Source: Aphelenchoides besseyi (Eukaryota > Nematoda > Chromadorea > Rhabditida > Aphelenchoididae). Taken from it: a DNA stretch of 64,000 nt. The notes under the pieces were generated by a model, which was given only the letters and a program-made list of their open reading frames with translations, had not been told where the DNA came from and did not search any database. The stretch lies in contig JAMPIQ010000003.1 in the NCBI GenBank assembly GCA_024699855.1, forward strand, positions 8,184,001 to 8,248,000, in the 5' to 3' direction. The translations under genes and the position numbers were made by a program. Of this stretch, positions 15,162 to 62,945 are shown piece after piece. How positions within the stretch are numbered: position 1 is the first letter of the stretch; each line of letters opens with the position of its first letter.

Positions 15162-15168
15162 CAAAGAC

Positions 15169-15206
<38 letters not shown>

Positions 15207-15574: not shown

Positions 15575-15621
<47 letters not shown>

Positions 15622-15644
15622 AGCCAAGCGTCCATAGCGACGTT

Positions 15645-15682
<38 letters not shown>

Positions 15683-15724
15683 CGTAGCAGAATGCGCAAA
15701 GCGTTGGATTGTTCACCCACTAAT

Positions 15725-15771
<47 letters not shown>

Positions 15772-16190: not shown

Positions 16191-16240
16191 TGAATCTGTT
16201 TTCGTCCATTTCATTATTGTATCCTCTACATACAGACTTT

Positions 16241-24336: not shown

Positions 24337-24818
24337 TGTCGTGACAATTGCGACACTTCTTCGAAGAGGTTTTCCCAAATTCTCAAACTCAAACTTGGGT
24401 TTATAAACCTTTTATTTAGAATAGGCGCGAAACATTACAAACACGAATACAAAAATGAGTCAGAGAAAAAGAGGAGAGAGTAAAAAAAAATGAGTTAACG
24501 AAAAAATGTGGGAAAAGGAATGGCAAATAGTCTCCGATCGTCGTTTAAATACGGAGTATCGTGATTACGCGATCGGCTAGACTGGGAGGAGAAATGACTT
24601 AAAGTCGAATGGATAGCAGGTGTGATGCGGTGTTGTTTTGATAGTTAGATGGCCGCCGTACGCCGGCGGTTCACAACAAAGATGCATTCAAATATGGACG
24701 CCAGATCGTCTGGGAAAAAACGTAAGAAAGGTCGCAACACTTTACAACTCAAAGAACGATCAACTCGGCAATTGGCGATTTCAAAATTTCATAACTCGAC
24801 AATTAACAATTCTCGACA
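24337..24818 (-). repeat. Left LTR (3' LTR in element sense)
   Basis: 482 bp from TGTCGTGAC to TTCTCGACA. 24452-24818 is almost identical to 34800-35160, and 24337-24433 is repeated inverted at 26508-26597 with a 6-bp deletion. Confidence 0.8.
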
Positions 24819-26507: not shown

Positions 26508-26616
26508 TCGCGCCTATTCTAAATAAAAGGTTTATAAACCCAAGTTTGAGAATTTGGGAAAACCTCTTCGAAGAAGTGTCGCAATTGTCACGACATTTTA
26601 TTTGGTGCATTGGCCG
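26508..26616 (+). repeat. Inverted LTR end plus tRNA-Gly primer-binding site
   Basis: 26508-26597 is the reverse complement of the left LTR end (24337-24433). Seven bases later comes TGGTGCATTGGCCGGGAA, which is complementary to the 3' end of eukaryotic tRNA-Gly (…CCCGGCCAATGCACCA). An LTR end followed by a primer-binding site is the normal 5' structure of a retrotransposon, here on the strand opposite to the integrase. Confidence 0.75.
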
Positions 26617-28482: not shown

Positions 28483-29439
28483 TCACAATCTTTTAAAGAT
28501 TTCGCGATGAACGATGTTCTTAACAAAACAGTTCGAAGAAGTTTGTTGATCTTTTGATGGAACGAGAGCTTTCACTGAATCCCAAGATCGTGCTCGTGAC
28601 AAAGCCACGTACAACTGACCGTGCTCAAAGACTTCATGCTCGAGATTCAGCCCAACTCGTTCGAAAGTTTGGCCTTGACTCTTGTTGATTGTCATAGCAA
28701 ATGCCAATTTCAATGGGAACTGCTTGCGGTTTAATTGAAACACATTGTGATATGTAATTGTGTTGTTAATTCGTGGAATGATGTGACGTTCACCAGCATG
28801 ATGTCCCGTAAGAATCTCGCATTCGATCGAGTGGTTGTTCATTTCAGCGACCAACATTCGTGTTCCATTGCACAAACCGTCTTCTTGTGACAAATTTCGA
28901 ATCAAAATCACAACCGCATTTTTCTTCAACTCCAATTTATGAGCTGGTAGTGATGCGTCTTCAATCATGTTCAGATACTCTGGTAGCAGCAAAGTTTGAT
29001 CATCACAGTTCTCAGCATCCATGGCAGTGTCAATTGAGAGATAAATTTTTGTTTGACCCTCTAACATATTCAAGACTTTTTCATTCGATTCGTTTACGCC
29101 AATGTGTTTTGATACCAAAATCGCCGAGTTTCCCATTTCCTTAAACTTCTTTTTTTCTATTAACACGCCGAAGATCTCTTGTTCTAAGTTCTGTTCAAGT
29201 AAGCAGTGTGTTGGCAATTCGATCGTTTCGTTCTTGTCATTCAAAGTTCCTTCTCCGACTTGTTTGAGGAAATCAGCGAATTGAACTTCGTTCGGTTTTG
29301 TTCGCATGTTTTTCGTTAATTTCAATTGCTCGAAATATTTCCACAGTTTTGATGAACAAATGGACAAATTGATCGTTTCGCTGACTGTGCCGTATTTCAA
29401 AATTGGCAGAATTTGACGGAAATCGCCTCCAAGAACCAT
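28483..29439 (-). pseudogene. Helitron 1 Pif1-type helicase, C-terminal part
   Basis: Continues the helicase after the frameshift at 29459-29463. Starts at the motif GGDFRQILPI and contains NGTRM, the late SF1 motif AFAMTINKSQGQTF and the end motif HGQLYVALSRA, as in Pif1/RecD-like helicases. It unwinds DNA during rolling-circle transposition. The frame is intact to a stop at 28483, but the ATG at its head is probably only the methionine of VLGG and not a real start. Confidence 0.85.
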
Positions 29440-32344
29440 GATTTTGCCTCCAAACGGTAAAAACGGTGTTCATTAATTCCTGAAGTTTGCGGTCGGCTAT
29501 TTCCAGTGCATAGCGAGGGGCCATTGGTGCTTCGTCCCAGATAATAATATCAGCATTCATCAACATTTTACCACCACGACTTGTTGCTGTCAAGTTTGAA
29601 TTCGAATCACGTTCAAGCGGAACTCCAAGACCAAAAGTTTTGTGACATGTTTTGCCATTTGGTAACAACAAAGCTGCGATTCCAGTGAATGCACAGGCCG
29701 AGAATTTCTTCTTGTTTCCGTTGACAAAATGGCACAGTGTTTTGTAGACGTAAGTCTTGCCGGTTCCGCCTAGACCATCTACAAAGAAACACTTCGGCTT
29801 TCCATCAATTTGGGGACTTTGAAGAGCGGCGAGAACTTTGTCAACAACAATTTTTTGTTCGGCGTTCAAGGTTTCGTACAACTCTTTTGCGGCTTCAAGT
29901 TCCTGGTCGTGATCGATTGTGTCCTCAATCTCTTCGATGTCCTCAACAGCGTCCATTGATGGGAAGTCTTTGATGGATCTGTTTTCTCGCTGCAGAATCG
30001 TGTCAATTCGTTGGTATGCTTTTGCAATCGCTTTCGATCGATCTTTCAAGTGACGATTGAAATCGTCGCTGAGATCATTTTTGAACATTTCCCACAAAGT
30101 CTTTGGATCAGCAGGATTGCAGTGAATGAGGATGTTGGCAAATAGGGTTCGCAATCTTCTCGGCATCAACACCTGAACTGCTTCTTGCATGCATTTGATG
30201 TACTCTTCGTCATCTTCAATAAGTCCCAATTTCAAACATGCTTCTCCGTTATTTTGATACTCAATTCCGTTAACCGTGCGCAATTCCTTGAAACTTTGAG
30301 CTCCTCTAACGTGTTGAAGAAGAAGTCGCAAATGCCACAAATCGCCTTGACTCGGACTAATCGCGTACATTCGACCGACGGTTTTGCTGCTTCTGACTCG
30401 TTGTTCCCAGTGAGTGATTGTTTCATCGGTTTGATTGTTTTGAACTTTCAGTGATTTCCAGGTGTAGTGAGTTGGTATCTCCGAGTACAACAACTTTCGA
30501 GCATTTACATCTCGTTCGTTCAATTTGAAAAAGTCCATCAGTTTGGTTTCTTTTTCCATTGCTTTTTTTGCTTTATCGGCATCACAATCTTCTTCGACGT
30601 AAACTGCCTGTTGATTCTCGAGATGGATTGGAAGCCGTTCAACGTGATGGGATTTGTCGTGCATTTTTAATTTCAAAATTCGATAACACGCTTCAACCGG
30701 ACCAACGTAACGACCGTCAATGTGATCTTTTATTTCGTCGTGATTAATGTTCCCCGAAGATTGAAGTTCCAGAGAAGCGGCATCGTATCCTTTGTACGCG
30801 TACTTGTAGAGATACTTCACATTCTTGATGGAACTCACGATTTCAACATTGATGTGACAACGATAGCGTTTCAGAAGATACCAACTGTACGGAACTACGC
30901 GACGGTTGTCATATTTCACATTTTTGATTTCGATGAATCGGTCGTTGTTCGGTCTTTTGAGAAATGGATAGCCATTTTCGTTTACTTTGGTCTCTTCCAA
31001 AAACTGTTTTGGGAACTTGTGTCGACACTTTCCGTTGATCATACATGGAGCCTTTGGATTCTGAACACCACAAACTCGATGGATCATGTATTTGCTCACC
31101 AACTCTAACAGTTCTGGATCGGAGTCTGGTGGCAATTCGGCACTGAAGTACTTGTCGATGTTCTCCGGTTGCAAGAACTTTTTGCCGTCTTTCAGACTTA
31201 CTAAGCAGTGAATATGTGGTAGACCTCGTTTTTGGAATTCTGTGACGTAAACATAACACTTCGGCTCACCAAAGACTTGCTTCTTGACCAAATCATCGAT
31301 AATTGCTTCAACTTTTAGTGCAAAGACGCGAGCAACAATATCTGGACGGTCACTTGCAGTTTGTTTTGCTCCAATGACGATCGATTCATTTATTGTTTCA
31401 ACGATTTCCGGCCAAAATGAATCGCAAGTCATCGTGATGAACAGATCCGGTTTTCCGTTACTAAGAACAATTGCCATTGCATCTTGGTAATTTTCACGCA
31501 TGAATCGAGGTGATCCGAAGTGCGTCGATGGCAAAACATGGATTCTTCCAATGTCTCGATCCAATCGTTGTCCGAGTCTACTCAAACTTGCGTGAAGTTC
31601 GTGGTAGTGCATTGATTTGAGTTTCTTTTGATTCAACCGAATCCATTGCATGCGATCGCTCTCGACTTGAACATACGAATCGACTACGAATTGCTGGAAC
31701 AACTTCTTTCCGTAGTGAATACGACTGTTGGAGTGCTTTCGAACAGCTAATCGGTAACTGTGGAATTCTGCCCGAGTTAATCGGCTTTGCTTGTTTGTGT
31801 TTTGTTTGATCATATCAATTGACCATCCGAGCGTGCCTTTTGGAAAGAATAACGGATATAACCAAGAGGTGGCAAACGCACTCAGTGAACTGAGAATTCG
31901 CGGTGTTGGTTCATTTTTCAATTGTACGACCAAGGACATTTCGGGGATATCTCCAGAAGAATCGGATGTAAAAACGGCCCCAATTTCGTCGACTGTTGGC
32001 TCATTGAAGCGATTAGCATCGTAACCGGGACGCATTTTGAATGCCATTTTTACGTTCTCAACCGGTCTGCCAGCGTTTTCTTCTTCCTTCATCAAATCGC
32101 TCATCATCATGTGTATTTTAGCATGTGGATTGTGTTCTCGAATTAACTTGTCCAGCAGCTCCATTAATTCCTTTTTTGTTCCATTTGTTGTATTCAATCG
32201 TCTATCAACTGCTTCTGCCGGATCGGAGAAAAATAACTGGCCGTACTTTCGATCAGCGGGTGCGTTTACGCTTTCATCGATTTCATAGCAGATTTGTCCT
32301 TGAATCGAGAAACAGTATGGACCGGGATTGGCAAATGATCGCAT
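29273..32344 (-). pseudogene. Helitron 1 Rep (HUH) nuclease and helicase N-terminal half
   Basis: An open frame of 1023 codons. It has the RepHel N-terminal region, the HUH motif GLPHIHCLV (about residues 374-382), and the tyrosine motif KYLYKYAYKG (about 510-519) with two tyrosines on one helix, as in Y2 Helitron nucleases. Helicase motif I GLGGTGKT lies near residue 860, followed by Walker B IIWDEAP. After LQELMNT the frame runs out of phase at an A5/T5 run, and the final 50 or so residues are a wrong-frame tail. The protein nicks and joins DNA ends and starts unwinding. The annotated start is internal to the longer original protein. Confidence 0.88.
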
Positions 32345-32366
32345 TCGAACGTTGAAAGCGGCAAAG

Positions 32367-33584
32367 CTATTCGCTGAGTTGTATTTTTCGAATGTTGCTT
32401 AAAAAGTTTTTTGACATTGAATGCTTTTCCGTAAACAAATCGTCTAGTTCTTGTGGCAATTCCGGTAACTCAGGCAAATTGATTTTGCCGTGATTGCAAC
32501 AGTCGTTAAATGTTCGTTTATTATCGACTCTTTCCTCTTCAAAATGCAATGCACGACATTCATCACATTCGACATTCATTTTGCTCAACCGATGAACTGG
32601 AACATTGTTCGGAATTGCAGCGACGTTTAATTGGATGTGTTTTTGCTGTGCGGCTATTCGCGAAATTCGATGTTGCAATTTGTCTTTAGTCAATCTATCA
32701 GCTTTTTGTTCATCAGTTTCGGCAACTCGTGCACTTTGATGTTTCTCTCTGTCTTTGACTAATCGTTCTGTTTGCTGTTGATTAGTTTCAGCGGCTCGTA
32801 GATCATTTTGACGTTCTTTCTGCTGATTCAAACGTTTAGATTTTTGTTCATCAGTTTCTAAACGACGTTTTTTTGCTTGACTATCTCGCAATTGTTTTAA
32901 TCGTTTCTCACGTCTAGCGGCATTTACATCGTTAACAACTTCGATTTCTTCCGAGTGATTCACCGATTCAACATTGTCATTTCGATGGACATTATAAAAA
33001 GATAAGAACAAAGCTTCCAATGTGTCAAACAGATTCAAACGTTTATCGAATCCAGTTTCGTTTGTTTGACATAAGAAGATACCGTATTGATGATTCTGTA
33101 GGTTTGCGAAGAAATTCTGAGCATTTGATACGACATAAGCAGCACAATTGTATCCGTCTTGTTGAAGATCTCCTTGACTGCCGATGTCACTCAATAACAT
33201 TTGCGAGCTTGAATTCAAACCTGTCCATGGGGCAAAAAGTTGACTGTAAATCGAACATATCAACGAATAGACATCGGTAGACACAGGACAATGTAATGAA
33301 TCACAATAGTGCAAAACACATTGATGACTAATCGCAGTCTTTTCCATGATCGACAACACATAATGACCGTTTACATAAATTGGAATCAACAGATAGACGG
33401 TCTCGTTTGATTGAACTGACGGTTGCACAATGCAGTATTTTGCAGGATTCGACTCAGCAGTACGATAATGATTGATCCAAAAAGACATAGAAAGAAGGCC
33501 GATTTTTAACGGACTATTTGCAATCAAGTCCAACAATCCGAAGATAATTGACTCGTAGTCAATCCATTCGTTTGTGTTTTCCAT
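32367..33584 (-). pseudogene. Helitron 1 Ulp1-like (C48) cysteine peptidase plus zinc finger
   Basis: 405 codons. An Ulp1/SENP-type catalytic set is visible: His74 in NGHYVL, Asp95 in YCDSLH, Gln141/142 and Cys147 in QQDGYNCAAYV. A long Lys/Arg/Gln/Glu coiled region follows (about residues 220-320). Then comes the Helitron-type zinc finger CDECRALHF...CC (about 340-370). Such peptidases cut isopeptide or precursor bonds, and a role in transposition is unknown. The frame ends at a TAG caused by one extra base in T5 at 32384-32388. In the next frame the text continues straight into the Rep part. Confidence 0.75.
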
Positions 33585-33960
33585 GTTCGGTAACTGTTTT
33601 TTTTGCTAAATGACATTCGGAACGAGCAACTTCACAGAGATTGCTTAACTGACAGTGCGTATGAAACTTAAAACCCAGAACATCTTGAATTGTGATTTGT
33701 AGTTGCTCGACATCGACTATCAATTCTTCCATTTGACGTGAAATTTCGAGAGTTGCAATCAATGAATTTTGTGTTTCTGTTTGTGGTGCTTGTGGAATTT
33801 CATTTTCGGTTTCAATGACCGTTGTGATCTTGTGTTGTGTTCCTTTAGCTGCCTTCTGTTCTGCACGAATTTTACGCATTCGTTCACGGTTCTTACGCCT
33901 ACGCTCTTCTTCACGTTCTTTCTTTTCCTCATCTGTCAGCTCAATCTTTCGTTTCGGCAT
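33559..33960 (-). pseudogene. Helitron 1 basic N-terminal segment
   Basis: 133 codons opening with a highly charged helix (MPKRKIELTDEEKKEREEER...), rich in Glu/Arg/Lys, possibly a DNA-binding or coiled-coil head. It overlaps the peptidase frame by 26 nt. Removing one base from the T8 run at 33597-33604 would fuse the two, which suggests one original protein. It could also be a genuine separate small gene. Confidence 0.55.
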
Positions 33961-34799
33961 TTCGTAAGTTTGAGATTTTTATAATGAAAATTCTGATAGT
34001 AAACAATTCTGATAATAAGCAAATTCTGATTGTAAAGAGATTCTGATGTGGGTGGCTCAGCTGATAAGACAAAGACGGCGTGCCGGACCGCTTTGAATGT
34101 CTATGCCCTGATAAGACAATCCGACCGGGCCAATCGAATTGAATATAAGACGTGAGGCCCACCAAAGAAACGATGGCCAACGTATACTTCCTGAAACACA
34201 AAAAACTCAATATCACTAAACAATTGAGAATTGACTTACGATAAAAACCGAAGCTTAAACAGTTTAACGTTCTTAGTGGTCGTTGTCACTTGATGGAACA
34301 ATAGCCACACGTAGACAAAAGACGTTAACCTGAATTTGAATCAAAGATGATAATGCCGTTGAGTTTTCTAAACTTACCGTATACTTTAGCTTCTTTACAC
34401 GTTGAATGAAAGCAACAAAATCTGAAAATAATGTTTTGATTGTAATCAGATAAGACCTAAGAAACTTACGTTAACAAATTAGCAATTAAAAGAACCAACA
34501 CAATTTAGGCGATAGACGAAAGCAACCAACACTTTAGACGGAAGCAAAAACAAATGGTCTTTCATCAAACGGTCCAAACGGCCGCACACAAAACTTGCAT
34601 GGAAGAGAGTGCTCTCATTCGAAAATAAATGTGCACACGAATCGGTCGGTTTTTGTTGACAAACAGACAGACACTCCTCACTTTTTTTTATAGGGAATCC
34701 AAAAACCTAAATTTGAATCATTCAATTTTCGTTCATCATTTCCTTGTCATAAGTGTGCTGTGATCTATCAAAGTCGAACTCCTAAAGCTCGACATCAAA
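33961..34799. other. Spacer between Helitron 1 and right LTR
   Basis: No gene seen. The phrase GGCTCAGCTGATAAGAC near 34057 resembles a tRNA D-arm but lacks the other tRNA parts. The Helitron 5' terminus and the inversion breakpoint must lie in this stretch. Confidence 0.45.
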
Positions 34800-35160
34800 A
34801 TTGAGTCAGAGAAAAAGAGGAGAGTAAAAAAAAATGAGTTAACGAAAAATGGTGGAAAAGGAATGGCAAATAGTCTCCGATCGTCGTTTAAATACGGAGT
34901 ATCGTGATTACGCGATCGGCTAGACTGGGAGGAGAAATGACTTAAAGTCGAATGGATAGCAGGTGTGATGCGGTGTTGTTTTGATAGTTAGATGGCCGCC
35001 GTACGCCGGCGGTTCACAACAAAGATGCATTCAAATATGGACGCCAGATCGTCTGGGAAAAACGTAAGAAAGGTCGCAACACTTTACAACTCAAAGAACG
35101 ATCAACTCGGCAATTGGCGATTTCAAAATTTCATAACTCGACAATTAACAATTCTCGACA
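34800..35160 (-). repeat. Right LTR, truncated (5' LTR in element sense)
   Basis: Matches 24452-24818 with a handful of differences, then ends CTCGACA next to the target duplication ACGC. It lacks the 115 bp corresponding to 24337-24451. Most of that piece is found inverted at 26508-26597. Confidence 0.8.
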
Positions 35161-40101: not shown

Positions 40102-40535
40102 TCATTCAGCAGCAGACAATTTGACCATAAACTCACCTCTGAACGGCGATTGATATGATGGTTCGAATGCAAGCTTCGCATCGGACATGTCGGCCGGTGC
40201 TTCGCTAAATTGAATAACCAACTTGTCGGCTTTCGGTTTGCCGGGCTGAAAATTGAACGTTAATACAAGAAGCTGTTGATCGAATACCTTGCGAGTGATC
40301 TCCAACTCTCCTTGTTCTCCGACTTCGACGAAACCGAACACTGGGTTGACCACTAAAAATGAGATGTAGAAGAGAATGGAAATCCAAGCTACTTACTGTA
40401 ATTTCCGTTGTTTGAGCACTTGACTTTGTAGGCCAAACGAACGCCGCATTGATTGACGAGCTTGTGCTTCGACTTTCCACCGGCAGCCGTAATGTTGCAG
40501 ACCATTGGAACGCAGGCGAGAGCACTGGTCGACAT
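40102..40535 (-). CDS. Small MSP-domain protein (sperm-specific SSP-like)
   Basis: Three exons (40397-40535, 40288-40352, 40102-40245) give 115 aa, almost entirely one major-sperm-protein domain. Visible are AAGGKSKHKLVNQ, the signature LAYKVKCSNNGNY, VNPVFGFVE, LEITRK and KADKLVIQF. Short single-domain MSP relatives (SSP class) are nematode-specific, expressed in sperm, and act with MSP in the sperm cytoskeleton. The 42-nt second intron interrupts after LEITRK and must be removed to restore the domain. The SL RNA copy 1 lies about 100 bp upstream on the same strand. The gene looks intact. Confidence 0.9.
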
Positions 40536-40632
40536 TTTTGAAAGAGCGATTTGAGCAGAAGAACGACAGAAAGTCGAATGACAAGACTGAAAAGTGGCCT
40601 TTTCGCTCAAAATTTGCATATTTCAACTGTTT

Positions 40633-40733
40633 ATGAGTTCCACTGGGATGAGCGGAACAGTCCAAAATTTCAAGGTCTCTGCCACTTGAGGGCTGAGATC
40701 ATTCCACTAACCTTAAGAGTAGGTCAAATAGAC
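40633..40733 (-). ncRNA. Candidate spliced-leader RNA gene, copy 1
   Basis: Read on the minus strand, a leader of about 22 nt ends CTACTCTTAAG (last base 40712) and is followed by a 5' splice site GTTAGT. Three stem-loops fit the SL RNA plan. Loop I pairs TTGACCT with AGGTTAG, placing the splice site in the stem. Loop II (about 40674-40700) pairs TCTC/GAGA and GCC/GGC. Loop III pairs GTTCCGC with GTGGAAC (about 40639-40659). Between II and III is AAATTTTGGA (40661-40670), an Sm site close to the one in C. elegans SL1 RNA. The leader resembles C. elegans SL2 only in general form. An identical RNA is at 56268-56368. The exact 5' end is unknown. Confidence 0.72.
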
Positions 40734-40850
40734 AGAAATGACGAGTGACTGCGAAAAGAAGAGGGTTCGGTAGTGCAATAAAAGTGATGGGAAAGCGGCG
40801 GTCAAAGAGCAGATCCTAACCATCAGTCGCTCTCTCTATTGGTAGTTGTC
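40734..40850 (-). promoter_or_regulatory. Conserved upstream region of SL RNA copy 1
   Basis: About 115 bp upstream of the leader is shared with copy 2 (56369-56485) with about four differences, then similarity stops abruptly. The length fits an snRNA-type promoter with a proximal sequence element around -50 to -70. The element itself was not pinned down. Confidence 0.5.
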
Positions 40851-40974
40851 TTTTTTGACGGAACCCAAATGGTGATGTAACACTTGAAGTGGAACTCCAA
40901 GCAAACGAGATTAATTCATTTGGCCAGAACTGAACGTTCGAGTTGGTCGTTCGAATTGTTCGAGAGGTTTCAGG

Positions 40975-41417
40975 ATGTCGGTTGGTTGTTTTTTGTCATA
41001 AACTCCGTTTTAGAATCCAACAAACAAGAACTTCACTGCTTCGGTATCAACCGTTGAGAGTCCTGATGACTTTGCGAAAAGCCCACGTGTTCCAATTGCC
41101 GGGTGAGTTCACTTACATTTGCTTATCGCTTCCTTTTCGGACGTCCAAATCGCATCATCACTCCGGTTCGCAGTCCTCTCGGTCGTCCTTCTCGTTCGAC
41201 TTCAACAGTCAATGCGAATCAGGTTCAAGGTTTTTGATTCTTTCCTTTTCGTTTAATTTCGATTACAGAATCGAAATCAAGTGACTCCAATCGTTCAAAT
41301 TCTCTGGAGGATACCAAACAAAATGAGACCGTTGATGCTCCAAGTCCCGCTCACAAAAGATCAAGTCCACGTCAACCGTACGAACCTGAAGCCGCCGAAG
41401 AAAAAGACCCCAAATGA
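40975..41417 (+). CDS. Hypothetical disordered Ser/Pro-rich protein
   Basis: An acceptor (gtttcag) one base before the ATG suggests trans-splicing. Exons 40975-40980, 41014-41102, about 41176-41232 and about 41271-41417 join in frame, ending EAAEEKDPK then TGA. The product of about 100 aa has many SP motifs and a mixed basic and acidic tail, with no folded domain. A longer third exon (reading GRPNRIITPVRSPLGR) would be attractive but lacks an AG acceptor. Function not recognised. It is probably a phospho-regulated linker or chromatin-associated protein. Confidence 0.5.
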
Positions 41418-43602: not shown

Positions 43603-44859
43603 TCATCCACTGTTGGAGCTGGCCTTGTAAGCGGACCATTGTTGTTCGACGGTTTGACCGGTGATCTGCTTCCAGGTGTCGTTGTTGGCGTAGTTGCCGC
43701 TGCGGAGAATCGAATCGAACTGTTTGACGGCTCCGGGACGTTGCTTCTCGACCCAAACCAAGAAGGCGGCAGTCACTACGTATCCCTTGTCGTAGTTGTC
43801 GGAGCTCGTTGGCGGCGTCAATTTCCATCCAACATCTGCATTTGCAACGCCGAACTTGTTTCGAGCAAAATCGGCGATTCCCTCGGTCATCCATCCGGGA
43901 GCATTTGAACCGTAGGCTTGAACGATGTGCATTCCTTCGTGAGTCATGACATCAACGTCTTTTGGATTGTTCTTGAAATAAGTAGCTGAAATGTTGATTG
44001 CACCATTAGCCGCAAATGCAACTCCATTGTAATCGGGATCGATGTTCAATCCAACGCGTTTGAGAGCATTCGAATTGTATTCCTGAACAAGCTTGGGATA
44101 GACGGTGAAGAACGTCATGATCAATCGGTCGATGGTGTCTTTCGGTACTCCAGAAACCTTGTCATAGACAACCAATTGATAGTCTCCGGACTGATAGACG
44201 ACCGTGGTTGGTTTCGGAATGGCTTTGTAGATGGCCCATTGCTCTTCAACAGTCTTGCCGGTGATCTGTTTCCACGTGTTGTTGTTGTTGTCGTATTTGC
44301 CACTACGAAGAACAGAGTCGAACTTTTGAACGGAGCCGGGATATTGTTTCTCCAACCAATCCAAGAAGCCGCCGGTAACCAAGTAGGAACTGTCGTAGTT
44401 TTGGTTGTCTTGTGGATATTGAAGCGACCAGCCGGCATCCGCATTGGCAACTCCAAATTTGTTACGAGAAAACGCGGCGATTCCTTGGACAAACCAGTTA
44501 GGAGTGTTTCCTTGGTATGCTTGAACAACATAAGTGAGAACGAAAGTGAGAAGATCGAGGTCTTTGGGGTTGTTCTTGATGTAGTTGGCATCAAGAGTTA
44601 TTCCACCGTTACTGCTGCTTGTTCCTGCTGCAGGATCCAAAACAAGAGACACTCGTTTCGGGGCATTCGTGTTGAAGAATTGAACCATTTTGGGATAAGC
44701 ATTAAAATAGACCTGAATCAAACGGTCTTGAAGATCTTTCGGGACTCCGGAGTTCTTGTCCGTGTAGACCAGTTGATAGTCTCCGGATTGGTAGACGAGT
44801 TGAGAGCTGCCCAAGTGGATGATTGCCGAGAACAGAAGGAATACAAGCGAGTTGTGCAT
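43603..44859 (-). CDS. Secreted tandem basic-secretory-protein (BSP) metalloprotease
   Basis: A single-exon gene of 418 aa with a signal peptide (residues 1-19, cut near GSSQ) and two repeats of a PF04450-type domain (about 20-215 and 220-415). Each opens YQSGDYQLV and ends TWKQITG.TVE.QW. The second repeat keeps a zinc-protease motif HEGMH (307-311) and a downstream Glu in WMTEG (325), the layout of gluzincin-like BSP peptidases. In the first repeat the same positions read FVLTY (106-110) and WFVQG, so the zinc ligands are lost and it is probably a pseudo-enzyme. BSP domains are best known from plants, fungi and bacteria, so transfer is worth testing. The lack of introns contrasts with the neighbours. 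TATTTAAG lies about 50 bp upstream. Confidence 0.85.
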   Translation of the reverse strand: MHNSLVFLLFSAIIHLGSSQLVYQSGDYQLVYTDKNSGVPKDLQDRLIQVYFNAYPKMVQFFNTNAPKRVSLVLDPAAGTSSSNGGITLDANYIKNNPKDLDLLTFVLTYVVQAYQGNTPNWFVQGIAAFSRNKFGVANADAGWSLQYPQDNQNYDSSYLVTGGFLDWLEKQYPGSVQKFDSVLRSGKYDNNNNTWKQITGKTVEEQWAIYKAIPKPTTVVYQSGDYQLVVYDKVSGVPKDTIDRLIMTFFTVYPKLVQEYNSNALKRVGLNIDPDYNGVAFAANGAINISATYFKNNPKDVDVMTHEGMHIVQAYGSNAPGWMTEGIADFARNKFGVANADVGWKLTPPTSSDNYDKGYVVTAAFLVWVEKQRPGAVKQFDSILRSGNYANNDTWKQITGQTVEQQWSAYKASSNSG

Positions 44860-46008
44860 CTTCAAACCGATCGGAATGAGAGTTGATGGTTTGATTGTAG
44901 ATCGGACGGCTCTTAAATACCGAACATTAGACGGAAGTTTCAACCTTCGGATTTGTGTATTTAGTGAGTTGAACTCCGAGAACAATTGGTCGAAACCGAA
45001 CGCCTATTATTCTAATCCTTGCGGTTGCTTGTTTGAACACCTGCATTCATTCCAATAATCTTCTGTCTACCAATCATGTTCAGTCATTTGATCCGAATGA
45101 ACGTTCCTGGAAATACGCTGTCAGTTAGTTGTCTGACTTCGAGTTCACCAAACTGCTTCCTCCAAGCCAAGTGGATGAGATGGTAATGGTTAGTTTTTCT
45201 CAACATCCTTTATTTATTGTTATTTTAAGACAACATGATTTCAAGAAATCAGTGGAATCAGACACTTGCCTCACTCATCTTCTGTCTTTCAACTCCTGTA
45301 GTACATCATAGCATTGATTTGCGTTCCCTGTGAAGCTCTGGACAAGTAATTAGAAATTGGAACAACAATTACCAGACGTTTTCATTCTTCTTGGCAATAT
45401 TCGTCGAATGCATGAGAGCCTTTCGGATCGAATCTCAACAATGAATACTCATTGACAACCAACAACGCCAGTCGATGCTCATTTCTGCAGCTCCCAAAAC
45501 ACAGAACTCCTTCGTCAATCAACAATCTTCGAGGAGTGCGAGGAAGAGCGAGTTAAACGACATCCAGCAGAGACTTTCTGTTTCCTCTCAACAGACATTT
45601 AAACGACCTCCAGTCTACAACTACCTCTCCGAGATCAACAAGTATTCACGAAACTAAAAGGAATAGTAGTAATTGTAGACAATGCCATCTCTCGAATCCA
45701 TTACACAACATCCACTTGTATCAACACTCACAGTCATTATGAAGAATCTGTCAGATATCGTAAACTAAACGACATCACTACTGCAACTACGCAATGAACA
45801 GGACAAGCACCTTAAGACATTCCGTTCGTTTGACTCGTAATTGAAATGAACCAGAGGCTGGTCGCCGCTACCGCGGCTCCCGGGTATTGTGTGTGTGTGG
45901 TTTTCTGTAGTGATGTTCGAGAATAAAATGTTGTTAGAGTTGTGTTGATGACTTGGCAGTTTATTGAGTAATTAGAATTACTGCAACATTACTCAATTTA
46001 GTTGGTTC
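44860..46008. other. Intergenic with short unassigned frames
   Basis: 60-codon frames at 45129-45311 and 45475-45657 (+) have peptide-like composition but no domain, clear splice structure or signal. A TTGAGTAAT/ATTACTCAA inverted repeat lies near 45964-45997. Confidence 0.4.
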
Positions 46009-46211: not shown

Positions 46212-48656
46212 TCAGTCAAGAACTTTCTGATACACAATGTTTGTGGTTCGTGTTTGTTTTGCATCAGATAGTTTCACTTTAACATTGCTCCAACATGAAA
46301 CTCTTGAAAGAGCAACGTACATCTGTCCATGGCTAAAACATTCTTTGTTTGTTAAGTCTAATCCAATTCTATCAAACGTTTGACCCTGTGATTTGTTGAC
46401 AGTAATTGCAAAAGCTAACCGTATCGGGAATTGTTTACGATAGAAAGGAATGGCCAGTGGTTTTGTACATTCAATTGTTATTCGGGGAAGGAGTATTTCA
46501 GTACCTTTAGCGTCACCACTGAGAACTGCACATTTAAGTACGAAACTTTTACATTCCAATATACGTAAACGCGTTCCGTTACACAAACCATTGCTTACAT
46601 CGAGATTTCTTAATAGCATGACGATTGAATTACGTTTGAGACGTAAAAGATGTTTCGGTGCTCCTTTTGGATCAATTTTATGAAGTAACTCTGTCATATA
46701 TTTATGTTTGGCATTGTTGTGTGCTTCTCTAATCGTATCGACGGATCTGTAGTGAGATTCAATCCCTTCGATCATGCTTAAAGCCTTTTCATTCAAACGG
46801 TCAACTTCGATGTTTGTCGTAGCAAGAATTGCGCGGTTCATAATGATGTTAAAATTGTTATCGTTAATGTTCTTTTCAAATGTCTCTGTTAACAGATCAT
46901 CGTTAAAAAGACATTGAGCTGGGATTTCAATTGTGCTTTTAACATCATTGCTTCTGCCGTCGCCTATTGCGAGAATTTCTTGGGCAAATTGGTGTTGATT
47001 AACTCCGGCACGGAGATTTTCGGTCAAAGCGAATTTTTGAAATTTCAACCATAAAGGACTTGCTTTCAAACAAAGACTAATCATTTGATCGGCCGTAACT
47101 TCTTCTTTTATTGGTAGTGTTTGCCGAAAATCTCCACCCAGCAAAATTACTTTACCGCCAAATGGAATCGTTGGCAAATTAGTTAAGTCGCGCAGAGTTC
47201 GATCGATCGCCTGTAACATGTATTTGGATATCATCGAAGCTTCATCACCAATGAAAACATCAGTCTCTTTAAGTTCGTTAGCCAGTTTTGTTTTCTTTTC
47301 AATGTTTGATGTGGTGTCGTCGTCAATATTCAATCCAAATTTAAAAGTGTCATGAATCGTTCGACCTTTTGGAAGCAAACTTGCTGCTATTCCTGTAAAT
47401 GCCATTGCCTTGATTTTTTTGTTTTGACCTTTCAATGCATAATACAATGCTCGGTACAGAAATGTTTTACCGGTGCCACCTGGCCCATCCACGAAGTAGC
47501 AATTAGTTTTAGGAAATGTATCAGGTTGATTTGTTATTACTGCTTGGTAAATTGCGTCAAAAATTTTACGTTTTTCAGTGTTTAGTTGCTGATACATTTC
47601 TTCTCCTTTCTTTTCACATTCAACGGGTGTTAATTCAAAACTTTGATTTGCTTGAGGTTGAAGAAGTATACTTGGATTTGTTGGTAAGGTTGTAGGATCA
47701 ACATCTTCAGCGTCAGGCATATCAAATTTCGAAAAGTCTACGCCATTTCTTTGTAAAAGATCGGAGAGTTCTCTATACGATAATTTTATCGCCAATGACT
47801 CATTCTTATACTGATAAATATAATCTTGAGCTAAAGCTTCTTTGAATTCGTCGTAAATTGCTAATGGATTTGTTGGTTGGCAGTGAATTAGCAGCATAGC
47901 AAATAGGAATCGAAGTGCTGACGGCATTTTGAACAAAACGGCTTCTTGCATCGCGTTAAAGTACTCCTTGTCGTCCTCGATTAATCCAAGTCCTAAACAT
48001 GCTAATTTGAAAGTTGGGCAGATTGTGCCATCACTCAATCTTCGTAAATCTTCGAAACTTTTTGGTGAACCGATGTTTAAAAGTAGTAAACGTAAGTGGA
48101 AGAGCTCTGAGTTTTTCGGAGAAATTGTGTAAATTCTGCCTGTTGTTCTTAACGTTGAATTTACTCGTGGCGACCATTTCATGTTTTTTGCTTGCCAAAC
48201 GTAATGTTCAGGAACATCGCTATACAGCAGGTTATACCGAAAGTCTTTTGATGGCAAGTTTAATTTTGCATTTTCTTTGTTCAGCTCAAAGAAAGCCATA
48301 AGTTTTGATATTTTCTTATCTTTTGCTTTTGTCATTTGTTCGGCAGTTGCTTCTCTTCCCAAATACACTTTTTGTTGATTGAATTCGTGGATATCGAGTC
48401 TTTCAACCGCTAAGGACTTGATCACGATTTCATAACCGAAAAGACGCCATACGGATTCTGGTGCGCTTAAGTATCTGCATTTCTTAAAGGTGTCAACTTC
48501 GTCGTAATGCAAAACTTTTTTGTTTTGGTTAGTTTCCGTTATAAACTCTTTCTCAATCATAGCAACGTCCGGTCCTTTAAAGACGTACTTGTGTAAATAT
48601 TTAACGGCCTCAATATCGGCGACATGCTCGACGTTTATGTGACAGTTGTAACGCAT
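46212..48656 (-). pseudogene. Helitron 2 Rep C-terminal part and Pif1-type helicase
   Basis: 814 codons. Starts in the Rep domain just before the tyrosine motif KYLHKYVFKG. Then come a linker, helicase motif I GPGGTGKT, Walker B FIGDEAS, GGDFRQTLPI, LRNLDVSNGLCNGTR, the late motif AFAITVNKSQGQTF and the end motif HGQMYVALSRV. All helicase motifs are intact. The listed methionine is internal to the protein. The true start is at 52.5 kb, across the frameshift at 48801-48805. Confidence 0.9.
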
Positions 48657-48765
48657 TGAAAGTTGTGGTGAGTAAGGAACAACGTGTTGATTCGTTAAAA
48701 TTTGACCATCTAATGTGTGGAATTGGTTACCATTGTCTCGTCTTCTGTATTTTGTTTTACCTCCG

Positions 48766-51700
48766 TTACCGTGTTCGGTTTGATCTTGAAAAGCAAAAGG
48801 AAAAATTCTTATTACACCGTTGATTTTCTTCAGAACAACAGGGCATGAAGATTTTTCTATTCGTACTTTTAACTTGCTTAAAACAGGAGTGAAGGTTATT
48901 GGTTGTTACGGTTTTGTAAAGTTTGGGTTCTGTAATTGGAAGGGGTATTTCTGCACGAATAACCTTATCAATTTTTTTCCAATCGTCTAATTTGGTGATT
49001 TTATTGAGTGTGAAAAGAAGATGTACATGCGGCAATCCGCGTTTTTGAAATTCGATAGTACCGACGTAGCAATCGACTTTGCCAAAAAGTTGCGAATTTT
49101 TAATGTCATCAATTATGCGTCGGTATTTCAAACGGAAAACACGTGCCACTAACTCTGGACGATCAGACGGTAATTGACCCGGCAACAGATTCTCTGTGAT
49201 TTCGCGCCATTTTGGATTACACGTTGATGTGATGAATAGATCTGGCTTGCCAAAACGAGCGACTAAACTCATTGCATCGTTATATGCTTCAGACATGTAT
49301 CGTGGGCTGCCAGTGTAACTTGATGGTAAAACAATTACTTTTCCAACTTCTGCGCCTTTCTCAATAGCCTTTTCTCTCAAATAGTCGTTCAAGTCTTCGT
49401 AGTTTATGGCGATTTTTTTGTTTACATGGTAATTTATGTACAGAAGTCGCGAGTAATCTACACGAATGTAAGTACCCACTATGTACTCTTGGAACAATTT
49501 TCCACCATATTTCAACGCAGAGAAGTTGTTTGGTGTGTCATCGCGAATCGAGAGTTGGTACATTGCATATTTGCTCAGTGTAACCGTTTTATTGTTTTTA
49601 TCTTTCATTTCGGAATTCCATTTGGAAATACCCATTGGGAAAAATAAGGGAAATAACAAAGCTTCTGTTGATTCGTCGATGGGACTTAACTGCTTTAATC
49701 TTCCATCTTTTTGATTAAGTACAATGTACGCTGGCGGTATTTCACCGTTTGGCCCTTCTACATAGACTGCAGCTACTTCGTTAGTTCGTGGCATGTTAAA
49801 TCGACGTTGATCGGTGTTTCTTTTGATCGAAAATAACAATTTTAACGTCCGGATTTCAGTGTTGTTTTGTTGAGCGAATCTTTTTTCTTCTTCCATTTGA
49901 TCTTTTAACATTTGATAAGCTTGACAAAAGTGATTGTTTGCTCGTAAGATAAGGTCAATTTTTGTTAAAAGATCGGAGTTCAAATTAGGTGTTTCAACAA
50001 CGCGAATGCCTGTGGCTGCGTCCGTTTCGATCATGTAACGTTGACCGTAAGTTTCCATACTCGATTGCTGTGGTAAAGCTGACAAATTGATTAAATGATA
50101 TAAATCCCCGTGTTGTCGATACACTTGAGGGCCCAATCCTCTCGGACGAACTTCTTCAGTGACCGTAGATGCAAAGCGAAAAGCGTTATTATAAGAACGA
50201 ATATTTTCTTTAAAATGTTTTGATTCTTTGTACTTATCCGTAATTAGTTCACGCAATTCTGTTGGGTAAACATCATTACTAATTAGAAAAGCACCGTTTG
50301 AACAACAATTTGCAAAAGTTCCATCTTTTGACCGGGTTTCATCAGCAAAGTGTTTGGCTTTACAATTGGTGCATTCTATACTCATCGGGCCCAAGTAATC
50401 TTCTTCGATTAACTCAGTATTTTCAATCAGCAAATGCTCACAACGTTTCAGTTTTTTTTGTTGCCGAGTTTTCAATTGTCGTTTTTTTTGTTGACTAATT
50501 CGTTTGTTACGACTTTCATTCCTTTCACATTTACGTAAGCGAGTTTGTGATACCGAATTTTGTATACGTCGACGAGCGCTTGTACGTGGTGTTTCGTTTG
50601 TGCGTCGTTGTGATTGTGACTGACGAATTTTTGCTCGACGTGTATTACGTTTATCATCAGTTTCATTTAAACGAACAACAATCTGACTTAATGAGTTTCG
50701 AATTTGACGTGCATTTCGTTCGGCTGCAGTTTCCTTTCCTCTTTTGCTAATAGCATGTTGTCTTACTTGTGCCAATCGTTTTCTACGTTTGTATTGCGAT
50801 TCGGCAACTCGGCTTTCACGTTTACGTTCAGCATTACATCGTTTTTTGTTTTCGATTTCATTAGAAACGACAGACGATACAGTTTGATTAGTCGTGATTG
50901 GTTGGTATTCATTAAACAATTCAAAATCGTTATTTGTGACCAATTGGTTTTCTTCATTGATTGCAGTTTCCGGACCGTATGTAAATAGTGGGTCAAGAAA
51001 TTCAATGAGTTGTTTTCTTTTTTGCAAACCCGATTCGGAAAGTTTGATGAACGTATTTGATGCATTAGTCGTCGAACGTGTAAGCCACATCTTAACGTTA
51101 GAAAACACAAAGGCCGCACAGTTTGATGAATCATCGTATTGCTGCTGGTCAGTTTGTGTGCTCATGCTACTAAACTTGATAATTGGCTTAACGCGTTCAG
51201 AGATAAAGTTTGTTCGTTTGTAGACCGTCTCAACAATTCGTTTGATTTCTTCAGTGAAATATTTACACTGCGCTTTGTGATATGAGTCAATGTATTCTAC
51301 GTCAATTATCTTCGAATTGTAATAACCGTGCGCAATTGCAACGGTAAAATGTACTTCATGATAAATGGGAATTACAATATGAAACATTTCATTTTGTTGT
51401 TGCGGAATAACTGGCGGCAGAACAACCATGTATTTCATGATTTCATTTCGAGCTATTTGGTTAATCTCGGTATCGAAGTAAATAGGTGAAATTAACGAAA
51501 TCAGTCTGTTGTCTGTGGAAATCAGACGCATCAGCGCCAAAGTTAGTATTTCAACGTCAATTTTGTTGTGTTCGTCTTTCATATCTTCAAAATAGTTCGG
51601 AAAGATAGTAAGGTATTGGTTAAGAATTGACGAAAAATTACTAATTGGACAGTGTGTCTCAAATCGCGTGTCCATAACAATTCTCGGAGTTAATGGTAGT

Positions 51701-52503
51701 CGAACCAATGGAGCGTGATGATTGTTGTGATTGTCGTTCATCAACTCAACGTTTTTCTCAATTTCCATTGCTTCAAAAATTTGTTCGAATTCGTTAGTTT
51801 CGTTATTTAGTTCATCAACTTCCATCAACAATACAGTGTTTGCGTTTTGATTCGTTTGTTCGGTTTCTGTTCGGCCCGAACTGTTGGTTTCAAATTCATT
51901 TGAGATTTCGTCGATTAGTTTTCGTTTGTTATGATTACTTACTTCTTTCAAAGTTTCATCATTCCTTTGGTTACCTTTATTGGTTTCGGTATTTGAGTTA
52001 GTATTGCGAGGTCGACCTCGTTTAGTTTGTTTCTTTCTACCTCCACCTTGTAATCGACGATAAATGTTCAAATCGAACCTGAAACCATTTGCCTCGGATC
52101 CATCGTATTGAGAAGCGGAACCTTTGTGAGGCTCAACGCAACTCTGATGTACCGGGCGGGGTACCGATGACTGTTGAAAACAGAAGTTCTTACAGTTTTC
52201 GAGGTGCAACTCTTGGGGTTGACTAAGACCGATCGGCTGTTGAAGCCCGCAAGAGTTCTTCTCTCCAAATTTATGTCTTACAGTGGAGTAGAACTCAGCA
52301 CTGTCACATTTCAAAATGGGAAGAAGTATCTTGCGCTCGGAAGCGCTAAAACTTACCTTTCTTCTATCCTTGATGATCGTCGCAAAACGTATCATTCTTC
52401 GTTTTTCAATTGGTTGTACTGAAAGCATATAGATTAGTACATGAATTGAGTGTTTTCGCGCCACGAACGAAATATAGACGACACGCAAGTTACACGAACG
52501 CAA
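48766..52503 (-). pseudogene. Helitron 2 N-terminal part: AT-hook, Ulp1-like peptidase, zinc finger, Rep nuclease
   Basis: 1245 codons. An AT-hook KRGRPRN lies at about 161-167. An Ulp1-like cysteine peptidase has His at about 385 (EVHF), Asp at about 406 (YIDSYH), Gln at about 453 and Cys at about 462 (SSNCAAFV). A long Arg/Gln/Lys-rich segment follows, then the zinc finger CTNCKAKHF...CC, the Helitron Rep N-terminal region, and the HUH motif GLPHVHLLF near residue 1160. The last 30 or so codons are out of frame after the A5 run at 48801-48805. The first methionine may not be the true start. The reading frame is otherwise clean over 3.7 kb. Confidence 0.88.
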
Positions 52504-54281
52504 GTAAAATATTAGGGTTGTTATTCAACGTTTAATTTCGTTATTTGGTATTAGCGTCGATCAGTCACGTTTTGCTTGTAATCACTGAACATTCTTGAAT
52601 TATCAAACTCTTCGCATTCATAGCAATTGATTTCATCATATATCGTATTATATTTTCATTACTATGTTTGCTTCTAACAGCAGTTTCAATTATATAATCG
52701 TATGTAATTTGCATTTCAAACTGAAGTGATGGCATTCGATTGAAAGAAACTGAACCGTTTGGCTAGTCAGCCGATCCGACGAAACGGACTGGTAGAAACT
52801 GGTTGTTGTGTGAGCAGTTCAACTGTCGGGCGGAAAAGACGTCAGAGAAATTGCGCAAAAATAACATCGATTAAGAAACATTCAAATAGAAGACCTTTGG
52901 ACAAAATTTAAACAAAATTTTGAACGAATAGAAAAATAAATTGCAGAAATTAGGTTAAATTAAAAATCGATTAATTGTAGCCATTACAGATGTCAATGTT
53001 TATCGTCCAACAACAGAAAGAATTGTATGACGCGACTCGGGATCGAACCTGCGTCCCCCTGATCCAATGCTACCGTTTTGCCTCTACACCACGGGCGCTT
53101 GGACATATTTTCTAGGTTTTAGTAAAATTTCAATAACTTTATAAATTTTAATTAAATTTACAACAAATATTTATCAAATCAGCTATTTCTCATGGTGCGC
53201 ATTCACTGATTTTTTTTTACGTGATAAGCTTTATTCGTTCTTGAGATACTGGGCCAAATGGGACATGATGACAAACTGACAAACTTTCTCCTATTAGTGA
53301 GGGGATTGCCATGAGCTCAATCATCGTTCATGTTTCTTGTATTCGCTTGTCCGCGAGTGCTTGTTACCAGATTCTCTATTTATGCACTTTGACTGTCTGC
53401 TCAGGGCACGGTTTTGAATGCTTATGGTTGCGACAAAAGCAGAATACTGTTCATGTCTTCAACGCTACAACATTGTAGTTAATGAAGAACGCGTTTACAG
53501 TCGATGGTCGTATCAAGCAAATGATGGGCGCCGAGAACTGTTTGATGGTTCATAATTCTTCAAAACAAGATGACAAGCAAGTGAACAAAGTTCAGCGGAA
53601 ACAAAGCGAGTAATTTAAGCCATTTGACCGTCGCTGTTGCTCAAGTTCATAATCCAACAAACGCCAACTAGTGGTTCCACTTTTTGAGTGTGATACCAAC
53701 CAGTTTTCCGTTCTGACCGTGGAGTGAGTATTCTCTTTAACCTGTACTTTTTTTAACATCCTAAATGATCGTTTGTTGTTTTTTCGCAGTCATCTTAAAT
53801 GAGTGCTTTCGATTAGTTGTTGTCTTATGAGTAAACACATCACCAAATATCGGTTAATATTTGGAAGCTAGAGAATGAGAACGTTGGAATTGGGGTTCTT
53901 CAACACAAGAATCTTCATTATGCATCTGTTCGAATAGGGAGTGTTGATTAAGAACCGAGATCAGTTAGTCAAATTGAAGAACAGACGATTCGAAAGCTTG
54001 TTTCTATGCTTGTTCTCGACAAAAGTATGGATTGACAGTTGACTAATAGTCTCGGTGGTTGTTGGTTTCGAGTATTCTAGTCGCACGCACTCTGTTCTTG
54101 CGAACTACACTTACTTGAACTTGATTACATGGAAAGCATTGTCAAAAAAAGAAATTCCATAGATCCCTCAATTAACCGTTACTTTTTGAACTCATTGGAG
54201 TCATTCAAAAGCCTTGAAATTTACTCTCATTCGATTGATTTTGTTGGTCAGAGGAAGTTCGTAGTTTCTACCGGGTCTAAA
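52504..54281. other. Intergenic
   Basis: No protein gene supported. Contains the tRNA-like sequence described separately. Confidence 0.45.
53029..53098 (-). pseudogene. tRNA-like sequence, probably a tRNA pseudogene or SINE head
   Basis: On the minus strand the A box (TGGTGTAGAGG) and B box (GGTTCGATCC) of a polymerase III promoter are present at tRNA spacing, beginning GCGCCCG. The acceptor, anticodon and T stems do not pair well and no clear anticodon can be read. A functional tRNA is unlikely. Confidence 0.45.
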
Positions 54282-56002: not shown

Positions 56003-56267
56003 GCCGATTGGAACGTGCAAAGTGATCAACTTGTGTTTCACAAAAGCTGAGTGTTCAATCGATTGACATTCAAATCCTGTTTATCTTGTTCAATTGACCG
56101 TTCCAGCGTCTGACTTTGTTGAACTTTAAATCACAGTCCTGTTGCATATCGAATTGATAACAGTAACAGTGTTCATTAGTGTTTAGCGATCTGACTGTTC
56201 AAATGTGTGGTTCAATAAGTACAGAACACTCTGATCGCTGCGTTCTCTGATACTATTCCAACTGTTT

Positions 56268-56368
56268 ATGAGTTCCACTGGGATGAGCGGAACAGTCCAA
56301 AATTTCAAGGTCTCTGCCACTTGAGGGCTGAGATCATTCCACTAACCTTAAGAGTAGGTCAAATAGAC
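56268..56368 (-). ncRNA. Candidate spliced-leader RNA gene, copy 2
   Basis: Identical to copy 1 over the whole predicted RNA (leader ending at 56347, donor GTTAGT, three stem-loops, Sm site at 56296-56305). The surrounding conserved block (56259-56485) differs from copy 1 only at about four positions, all upstream of the RNA. Flanks outside the block are unrelated, so the two are separate dispersed genes. The alternative is an unrelated Sm-class RNA or a short repeat. Confidence 0.72.
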
Positions 56369-56907
56369 AGAAATGACGAGTGACTGCGAAGAGAAGAGGC
56401 TTCGGTGGTGCAATAAAAGTGATGGGAAAGCGGCGGTCAAAGAGCAGATCCTAACCATCAGTCGCTCTCTCTATTGGTAGTTATCTATGAATACGAAGAA
56501 GAGAGATTGCTTGAGAGTTACAGTCAGATTACTCATTTGTTTAACAAACATTGGATACTTTCTATCAGTTCTCATTAACTGTATATTTCTGTAACCCAGA
56601 TGTTTTAAAGCTTTGGCTTCTGACTCGTTCTCTATCAAGTATCGTTATCATGACGTTGACTTTTTCTTCGTTAACTACACTTCTTAATAAGCAAGTTTGA
56701 TTATATTTCTTATAATCAGATCAACTTTGACTGTACAAACTGATTGTCATTCTACTGTTGAAGAGGAACAGATGGCTCGGCGAGAAGTGTTCCGTTTGCT
56801 GTTCATGAACTTTTAGTTAACGAAAATTGACGATTTAAAAGAAGTGAAGTTTTCTCGAGTTTGTTAGATTATTATCTTTGAATCGTGTTTGTTTTATTGC
56901 TCTTTCT

Positions 56908-61849: not shown

Positions 61850-62945
61850 ATGTTCTCTCGTCTTTTAATCTTTACATTAATTATTGGGTTTACGGTTGGT
61901 GTAGTTGTAAAAACTCCAATTACACGGAAAGAATCGTTGGATGCTAAGTTGGTTCGTGAAAGTGAGTTCTAATTCCAAATTCTGTCTGAGATTGTCGTTT
62001 AGAACGTTATCATGAGCTTCGTGTTCTAAATCGTGTTCGTTTGGCAAAATCGATCAATCCATTTGTTTCTCGTTTTGATGTTGCTCGACAACCACTCTAC
62101 GATTACGCAGATCAAGAGTTCAATGTTCGAGTTAATATCGGTACTCCTGGACAAGAAATCGAAGTCATTCCGGACATGGGTTCCGCGAACACGTGGGTCA
62201 TTGACAAAACGTGCAACGGATCAGCGAGCTACCAGGACTGTCCGAATTATTGTTACACCAACAAGCAATGGTGTGCTCTCTTCTGCGAGGACTATTGTTG
62301 TGGAACGAATTCGACTCTTCGAACGCATCCAATTGCTTCTGGTGGTGATCCTTGTGCTGGACGAACACTTTTCGATTCGAGCGCTTCGTCGACATATCAA
62401 TCAACTGGCAAAGACTTTCAAATTGCTGGAGGAGTGGGCAATGTTTCTGGCATCGTTGGCCAAGACACATTTGTTGTTGGCGACCTTAAGAGCGGTTCAA
62501 CGATTTCAATTTTTGAAACAACTTTCGGTCAAGCGGATCGCCTTGGCGTCTCCTACTCCGCTTTTAAATTTAATGGTGTTCTTGGACTCGGTTTTCTGGC
62601 TGCATCGTCCGACGATACAGTCCCGGTCTTTCAACATGCTATCGATCAAGGAGTCCTGGACAAACCAGTTTTCTCAATTTGGTTGCAGAAGGGTGGTGTT
62701 CAAGCTCAAGACACAGTTGCTGGAGCGTTGACTTTTGGCGCCCAAGACACAGACTATTGCAGTTCGGACGTGACCTTCATTCCGTTGATCTCTAAAACCA
62801 TTTGGTGGATTAATATCGCGGCAATTGCAACAAACGACAAAAAGACTGAGGGTCAATATGTTGTAAGTCTACGGTCGACTTTTCAATTGAACGTTCTTTA
62901 GGCTATTGTATCACTTCCAACACCGTTCAATTTGGGAGTGCGTCC
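61850..62945 (+). CDS. Pepsin-like aspartyl protease, 3' end lost to an insertion
   Basis: Exon 61850-61961 encodes a signal peptide and propeptide. Exon 62003-62862 encodes the N-terminal lobe and the start of the C-terminal lobe: IGTPGQEIEVI, the first active-site loop DMGSANTWV, Cys-rich inserts, FNGVLGLGF and TVAGALTFG. A third exon begins at 62902. After about 40 bases it runs into the inverted repeat of a mobile element, and no second DTG loop was found before the window edge. The first catalytic motif reads DMG instead of DTG. Family members are secreted or lysosomal peptidases. It may be a truncated gene or may resume outside the window. Confidence 0.8.

Follow-up and report, generated by a model that had tools for sequence, protein, structure and literature searches.

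Two copies of a probable SL1-related spliced leader RNA gene with a divergent leader in Aphelenchoides besseyi, and intron-less leader copies in long terminal repeats

The window, a 64,000-nucleotide stretch of Aphelenchoides besseyi DNA (C3:8184001-8248000; genome searched, 47.4 Mb in 31 contigs), contains two copies of a block that is very probably the gene for a nematode spliced leader (SL) RNA of a divergent, SL1-related class. SL RNAs are a known kind of molecule, and the leader class appears undescribed in the searched literature. The case is built on what can be read directly in the genome, namely a family of genes with its leader, donor, Sm site and stems I and III, further leader classes akin to it, and intron-less leader copies. 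Like nematode SL1 RNA (Rfam RF00198; C. elegans), the predicted RNA has a 22-nt leader, a donor in stem I and a terminal hairpin; it shares the Sm site AAATTTTGGA with C. elegans SL1 RNA and is alignable with the SL1-type genes of the same genome. Unlike SL1, the leader lacks the GGTTTA start and ends with CTACTCTTAAG.

The sequence-only reading had described a 227-bp block repeated at 56259-56485, which was confirmed, the direct repeat in fact covering 233 nt with 98% identity (40619-40851 and 56254-56486). The anatomy that it had assigned to the minus strand, with stem-loops, a 5' splice site within stem I and an Sm-like site between stems II and III, was found as described in both copies (Table 1).

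Table 1. Features of the window and of the related leader-bearing loci
Feature	Position	Strand	Remark
SL RNA gene copy 1, transcribed part	40632..40733	-	17-member family; exact 3' end inferred
Predicted 22-nt spliced leader GTCTATTTGACCTACTCTTAAG, copy 1	40712..40733	-	2/22 columns variable in 17 genes; intron-less copies elsewhere
5' splice site GTTAGT	40706..40711	-	first bases paired in stem I
Stem-loop I, formed by leader and donor region	40703..40732	-	97.0% of cells paired in family; inner pairs kept across classes
Stem-loop II, weakest of three	40674..40700	-	pair 35-59 broken in 6/9 distinct rows including copy 1
Sm-like site AAATTTTGG, copy 1	40662..40670	-	invariant in 17/17 genes
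Stem-loop III, terminal hairpin	40637..40658	-	both-side changes in 6/8 pairs across classes
Candidate PSE (snRNA-type)	40780..40799	-	CCAT core at -57 from leader start; U1/U2-derived matrix
SL RNA gene copy 2	56267..56368	-	leader, donor GTTAGT and Sm-like site spaced as in copy 1
Leader, copy 2	56347..56368	-	identical to copy 1 leader
Sm-like site, copy 2	56297..56305	-	
SL1-like leader GGTTTATAAACCCAAGTTTGAG in LTR	24388..24409	-	right after AATAAAA
SL1-like leader GGTTTATAAACCCAAGTTTGAG, LTR-like flanks of same family	26529..26550	+	primer-binding-site-like stretch behind; without extra TTTGAG
18S-5.8S-28S unit	10005-16199	+	
5S rRNA gene	5059-5177	-	near 18S-5.8S-28S unit
LTR pair L148 / L149	C2:1102450-1102800 / C2:1107150-1107500		4.7 kb apart
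Pairs L137/138, L139/140, L141/142, L143/144, L012/013			6.7 to 8.1 kb apart
Pair L145/146			3.1 kb apart

Eukaryotic 18S, 5.8S, 28S and 5S rRNA genes are present in the window, and no SL RNA gene lies beside the 5S gene there. The protein read from 61990-62901 has Aphelenchoides besseyi records as the four best of its 25 matches (61-66% identity) and A. fujianensis as the fifth (51%). Long reading frames occur at 28483-33978 (-) and 46212-52524 (-); the former is flanked by LTR-like repeats (24502-24818 and 34845-35160), and 29273-32398 matches Helitron-like N-terminal and PIF1 helicase domains. In the reading frame 43603-45003 (-), two stretches match the BSP family, peptidase of plants and bacteria (PF04450).

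The block belongs to a family. Searching the genome with the 227-bp block gave 19 matches, of which 16 span the whole block, one stops at 226 bases and two are limited to the upstream 99, so that the copy count proposed in the sequence-only reading amounts to 17 full-length genes plus two upstream-only fragments. Eight of the genes lie at 13.65-14.52 Mb of contig C1 and nine at 8.22-9.34 Mb of C3; all 17 carry AAG/GTTAGT, a short exon followed by a GT donor, and all are among the 68 matches to the pattern AAGGT..AAATTTTGGA, for which the reversed control gave 16. Variation is distributed unevenly along the 17 genes, with variable columns in 2/22 of the leader, 3/11 of the donor region, 6/30 of stem II, 0/10 of the Sm region, 7/23 of stem III, 2/21 of the PSE region and 11/46 of the spacer. 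The corresponding figures for the outer flanks, 21/40 upstream (-110 to -70) and 20/34 in the tail, are inflated, since one gene (L007) has a 2-base indel and two copies have another tail. The Sm site, invariant among the 17 genes, was not used in the block search that found them. A common tail is present in 15/17 copies, the other two, copy 1 and L006, sharing a tail of their own. The two upstream-only fragments, L101 (C3:7983546-7983836) and L102 (C3:7974236-7974526), look alike; they retain the SL gene's upstream stretch with its CCCATC, without the RNA part, and would be either promoter fragments or another RNA gene.

Copy 1 scored 95.7 bits against the model R1, whose alignment itself includes copy 1. 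Folded alone, it reached -28.8 kcal/mol (z -1.23), and 21/200 shuffles were as good; single-sequence folding was dropped as evidence since it is not significant, and the case for an SL RNA thus rests on comparison. Variation inside the 17-gene family was likewise too small to be used: in 14 rows, of which 9 are distinct, 94.8% of the cells of the three stems are paired (stem II, 88.9%), and 215/500 shuffles did equally well.

For an alignment across leader classes 21 genes were chosen from 82 rows, some of which are alternative readings of one gene; they comprise 6 of the window family, 8 SL1-type genes and 7 with four other leader sequences, the AGG.., GACTTT.. and AGACTA.. groups being left out, and the Sm site belonged to the search pattern that supplied the cross-class rows. 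With inner stem I and stem III set manually, 98.0% of cells are paired, and 33 are compensatory against a shuffle mean of 11.0, a count reached by 0/500 shuffles, slid controls giving 0 to 6. The count of further pair types does not stand out (69/500 shuffles reach it). Covariation is confined to stem III, with variation in the other classes contributing, and two C-G pairs with the donor region are kept in 21/21 aligned genes. RNAalifold recovers 12/14 of the inner stem I and stem III pairs unaided; stem II was not found in the alignment of 21 genes.

In Rfam, SL1 matches copy 1 at 19.5 bits (E 0.65), below the curated cut-off of 75. As a test this cut-off is uninformative, because the genome's scored SL1-type genes miss it too: with 50 of 10971 of the genome's own candidates scored, the best is at 44.2 and none reaches 75. 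At E up to 10 the SL1 search also matched in 4/14 control genomes. In the scan of 40400-41100 at E up to 10, SL1 was the highest-scoring family and the sole minus-strand match, and no SL2 row appeared, within-clan overlaps showing the best family only. Among the covariance and folding checks that the sequence-only reading had called for, inner stem I and stem III held across classes, but the single fold, the within-family covariation and the Rfam SL1 cut-off gave no support.

A candidate snRNA-type promoter element is located at the offset used by SL1-type genes. The matrix was derived from the CCAT nearest to -58 in 9/11 U1/U2 genes (6 distinct sites; U2 at -58, U1 at -55). In the window-family rows listed, CCAT at -57 is the best site, with per-row shuffle P of 0.013-0.04; it is also the best in the 6 of 25 SL1-type rows listed, and several other leader groups match at -56 to -58, no match near -57 being found for AGGTTATATAG, GTCTAAATTT and a few single genes. 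The outcome of the test depends on the background chosen. For copy 1, a genome-like background gives P 0.0005 when five offsets are considered and 0.02 when all are; with a background from its own upstream stretch, the best matrix site shifts to -92. A matrix derived from SL1 genes finds a weak site in copy 1 (3.1 bits).

The genome holds further leader classes. Allowing 3 mismatches at most, the SL1 leader of C. elegans was found 122 times in the genome and its reversed pattern twice, and many of the matches read are SL RNA genes with the leader GGTTTATTAACCCAAGTTTGAG, which has 12/22 letters in common with the window leader. The wider pattern AGGT..AAATTTTGGA gave 140 genome matches, some overlapping, and 25 in the reversed control. 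Selected matches that were read yielded ten further candidate leader sequences in about seven groups, namely GGTTTATTAACCCAAGTTAAAG with GGTTTATTGACCCAAGTTAAAG; GTCTTATTGACCCAAACTTAAG; GTCTAAATTTGACCC(C)AATTGAG; AGGTTATATAGCCTCTCAAAAG; GACTTTTTCAGTCCGTTCATAG; AGACTATAAAGTCTTTAAAAAG; and AGGTTTATAAACCTGCAATAAG, AGGTTCAATAACCTCAAAAAAG and AGGTTTATAACCTATCAAAAAG. The GTCTTATTGACCCAAACTTAAG class is an intermediate that links SL1 and the window leader. Chance probably accounts for L088 and L098 at least, among the matches read. All gene counts are lower bounds (at least the numbers given), because an exact Sm site is required by the patterns and the genes were read from the SL1 and AGGT matches listed; two SL-like genes on the plus strand, L063 and L065, have the Sm letters CAATTTTGG and were missed by the pattern. 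The earlier claim that the organism uses a leader unlike SL1 holds for the unlikeness, but the window leader is not the sole one, since an SL1-type leader and about seven further groups exist beside it. At C1:9.66-10.11 Mb, two unlike SL RNA classes stand head to head about 350 bp apart several times (e.g. L070/L071), and SL1-type genes likewise occur as head-to-head pairs.

The window leader also occurs outside SL genes. Allowing up to 3 mismatches, GTCTATTTGACCTACTCTTAAG was found at 25 genome places (reversed control 0), of which 17 are the SL genes and 8 lie elsewhere, three of these exact. Neither the SL intron nor GT follows the leader at any of these eight. They count as seven distinct places because two of them, L120 and L121, are near-identical, and AATAAA or ATTAAA is found within 16 nt upstream of the leader in 4/7 distinct outside places versus 0/9 distinct SL genes. 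L120 and L121 adjoin gag-like reading frames. L128 is a third copy of the L120 stretch with a degenerate leader containing an inserted base, and no leader was found in the related copies L129-L133; L123, L125 and L127 have the leader at single places assigned to no element. A repeat search found no second LTR within the 2.3-kb pieces of L120, L121, L122 and L126.

These copies bear on the alternatives. That the 17 genes are SL RNA genes by descent which have fallen silent and no longer donate their leader is improbable, though less so than the other two alternatives. In its favour, two promoter-only fragments exist, copy 1 and L006 have a different 3' tail, and only 12/22 letters are common with the local SL1-type leader. 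The conservation of leader, donor and Sm site in 17 genes with more variable flanks speaks against such decay, as do the leader copies outside SL genes, three of them exact. Still less probable is an Sm-class RNA of another kind, for example SmY-like, resembling an SL RNA without taking part in trans-splicing. An Sm site, a terminal hairpin and an snRNA-type promoter are common to SmY-like Sm-class RNAs. Against this reading, a donor follows a conserved exon, the block aligns end to end with the genome's SL1-type genes, intron-less leader copies occur elsewhere, and SL1 is the only minus-strand match in the Rfam scan of 40400-41100 at E up to 10. Chance resemblance to SL RNA in an ordinary interspersed repeat or a mobile element is scarcely credible; the copies are indeed dispersed and some have unlike ends, but leader, promoter core and Sm site are the most conserved parts and the donor-to-Sm pattern has 140 matches versus 25 reversed.

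Under the preferred reading, as an SL RNA gene, the block would probably be transcribed by RNA polymerase II from the snRNA-type promoter into a capped, Sm-protein-binding RNA of about 100 nt. The donor AAG/GTTAGT would be presented by stem-loop I, and the 22-nt leader GTCTATTTGACCTACTCTTAAG would be spliced in trans onto acceptors of other RNAs, with use on mRNAs expected. The sequence-only reading had also cited acceptors right before the ATGs at 40975 and 8020 in support of trans-splicing, an argument that did not survive: TYNCAG with an ATG within 6 nt occurs in the window at the chance level (31 observed versus 30.8 +/- 5.5 expected from 30 shuffles), and the ATG at 40975 opens just 8 codons before a stop.

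Indications that the leader is used come instead from LTRs. L122 (C3:970794) reads ..GTTAATAAACTGTT, then the window leader GTCTATTTGACCTACTCTTAAG, then CCGTCGACTGG, and L148 and L149, 80% identical to the L122 stretch, read ..GTTAATAAACCGTT, then GTCTAAATTTGACCCCAATTGAG, then CCGTCGATTGG. GTCTAAATTTGACCCCAATTGAG is the leader of a 7-gene SL class, and outside those genes it is found exactly at L148 and L149 only. One slot of an LTR family is thus occupied by the window leader in L122 and by the leader of the 7-gene class in L148/L149. The latter two are identical over 152 bases including the leader and start with TG; both ends are bordered externally by ACTG, which may be a 4-bp target duplication, and a stretch after the 5' copy is on our own reading primer-binding-like. 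L126 carries a 3-mismatch version of the window leader in the matching slot, and no known leader was found in that slot of the more distant L150 and L151. A comparable exchange is seen between L016 and L124, a stretch not placed in an LTR, which aligns over 225 positions with 94% identity up to the first leader bases; past the junction, L016 continues with an SL1-type leader and L124 with the window leader (1 mismatch) after one extra G. Intron-less leaders of swapped class at a fixed LTR junction would be hard to explain unless the element RNA was trans-spliced and then reverse-transcribed, although a template switch to an RNA bearing a leader is a possible alternative. The swaps at a fixed junction are for this reason taken as good but indirect evidence that the window SL RNA works.

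SL1-type leaders show a partly similar picture outside SL genes. In the fetched loci, 29 distinct SL1-leader places have no AAATTTTGG behind them, and subtraction of the SL-like genes L063 and L065 leaves 27. Six same-strand pairs carry the leader in both members, with 109 to 117 of 117 surrounding letters in agreement, and resemble the two LTRs of one element. An extra TTTGAG stands behind the SL1-like leader at 24388-24409 (-), at other places and behind the window leader in L124, which fits re-splicing at AAG/TTTGAG of a resident SL1 leader; a short duplication would account for most of these cases. The arrangement is not uniform, because a poly(A)-signal motif precedes the leader by no more than 16 nt at only 10/27 places. 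GT follows the leader at 10/27 places versus about 2 expected (including L009, L014, L033, L037, L136, L145, L147, L154 and L167) and GTTAG at none; such GT-followed leaders could act as donors.

Taken jointly, these arrangements give even chances to the reading that LTR retrotransposons of this genome have built the host spliced leader into their replication cycle. The element RNA would be trans-spliced, so that its 5' end is the SL, and the same SL, sitting in the LTR after U3 and often right after AATAAA, would serve as the repeat for strand transfer. If another SL RNA, including that of the window, were spliced on, the LTR would switch its leader, and the LTRs would form a fossil record of which leaders were trans-spliced. 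This reading is weakened because 10/27 SL1-type leaders are followed by GT, which it does not explain.

Several known systems can be set beside these results. SL1-like sequences of B. xylophilus sit in 5S repeats (PMC3164644); unlike these Bursaphelenchus 5S-SL1 repeats, the SL RNA genes of the window have no 5S linkage. In Aphelenchus avenae, 12 SL1/SL2-like leader variants are described on mRNAs, four of which end with CACAAG, and none of the 12 given there equals the window leader (PMC2825203). Heterodera glycines has many leaders, of which 21 are reported as functional, with promiscuous use (PMC6362198); that repertoire is supported by reads, whereas the one described here is genomic, and the two are likened by description, not by their sequences. 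Variant leaders are known in Strongyloides ratti (PMC1657053) and Meloidogyne hapla (PMC7986045) as well. Nearest to the LTR leader cassettes appears to be C. elegans Cer1, an LTR element that can have SL1 added to its spliced RNA; in contrast to the reading proposed above, the accessible text reports that full-length Cer1 RNA was not found trans-spliced and describes no leader inside the LTR (PMC3315495). Among the open-licence papers listed for leaders and LTR retrotransposons, titles and abstract openings mention no leader within an LTR. The last 17 and last 14 letters of the window leader gave no relevant match in open-licence literature text, the last 14 occurring in one paper on a human protein.

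Knowing the leader sequence is a precondition for locating genuine mRNA 5' ends and operons in this nematode group, which has crop pests among its members, and the genome seems to carry about nine leader groups, not one. More unexpected than the SL RNA itself are the leader cassettes in LTRs. If the proposed reading is true, such cassettes would reveal trans-splicing from genomes without RNA data, and a mobile element would be using a host splicing product for its own replication.
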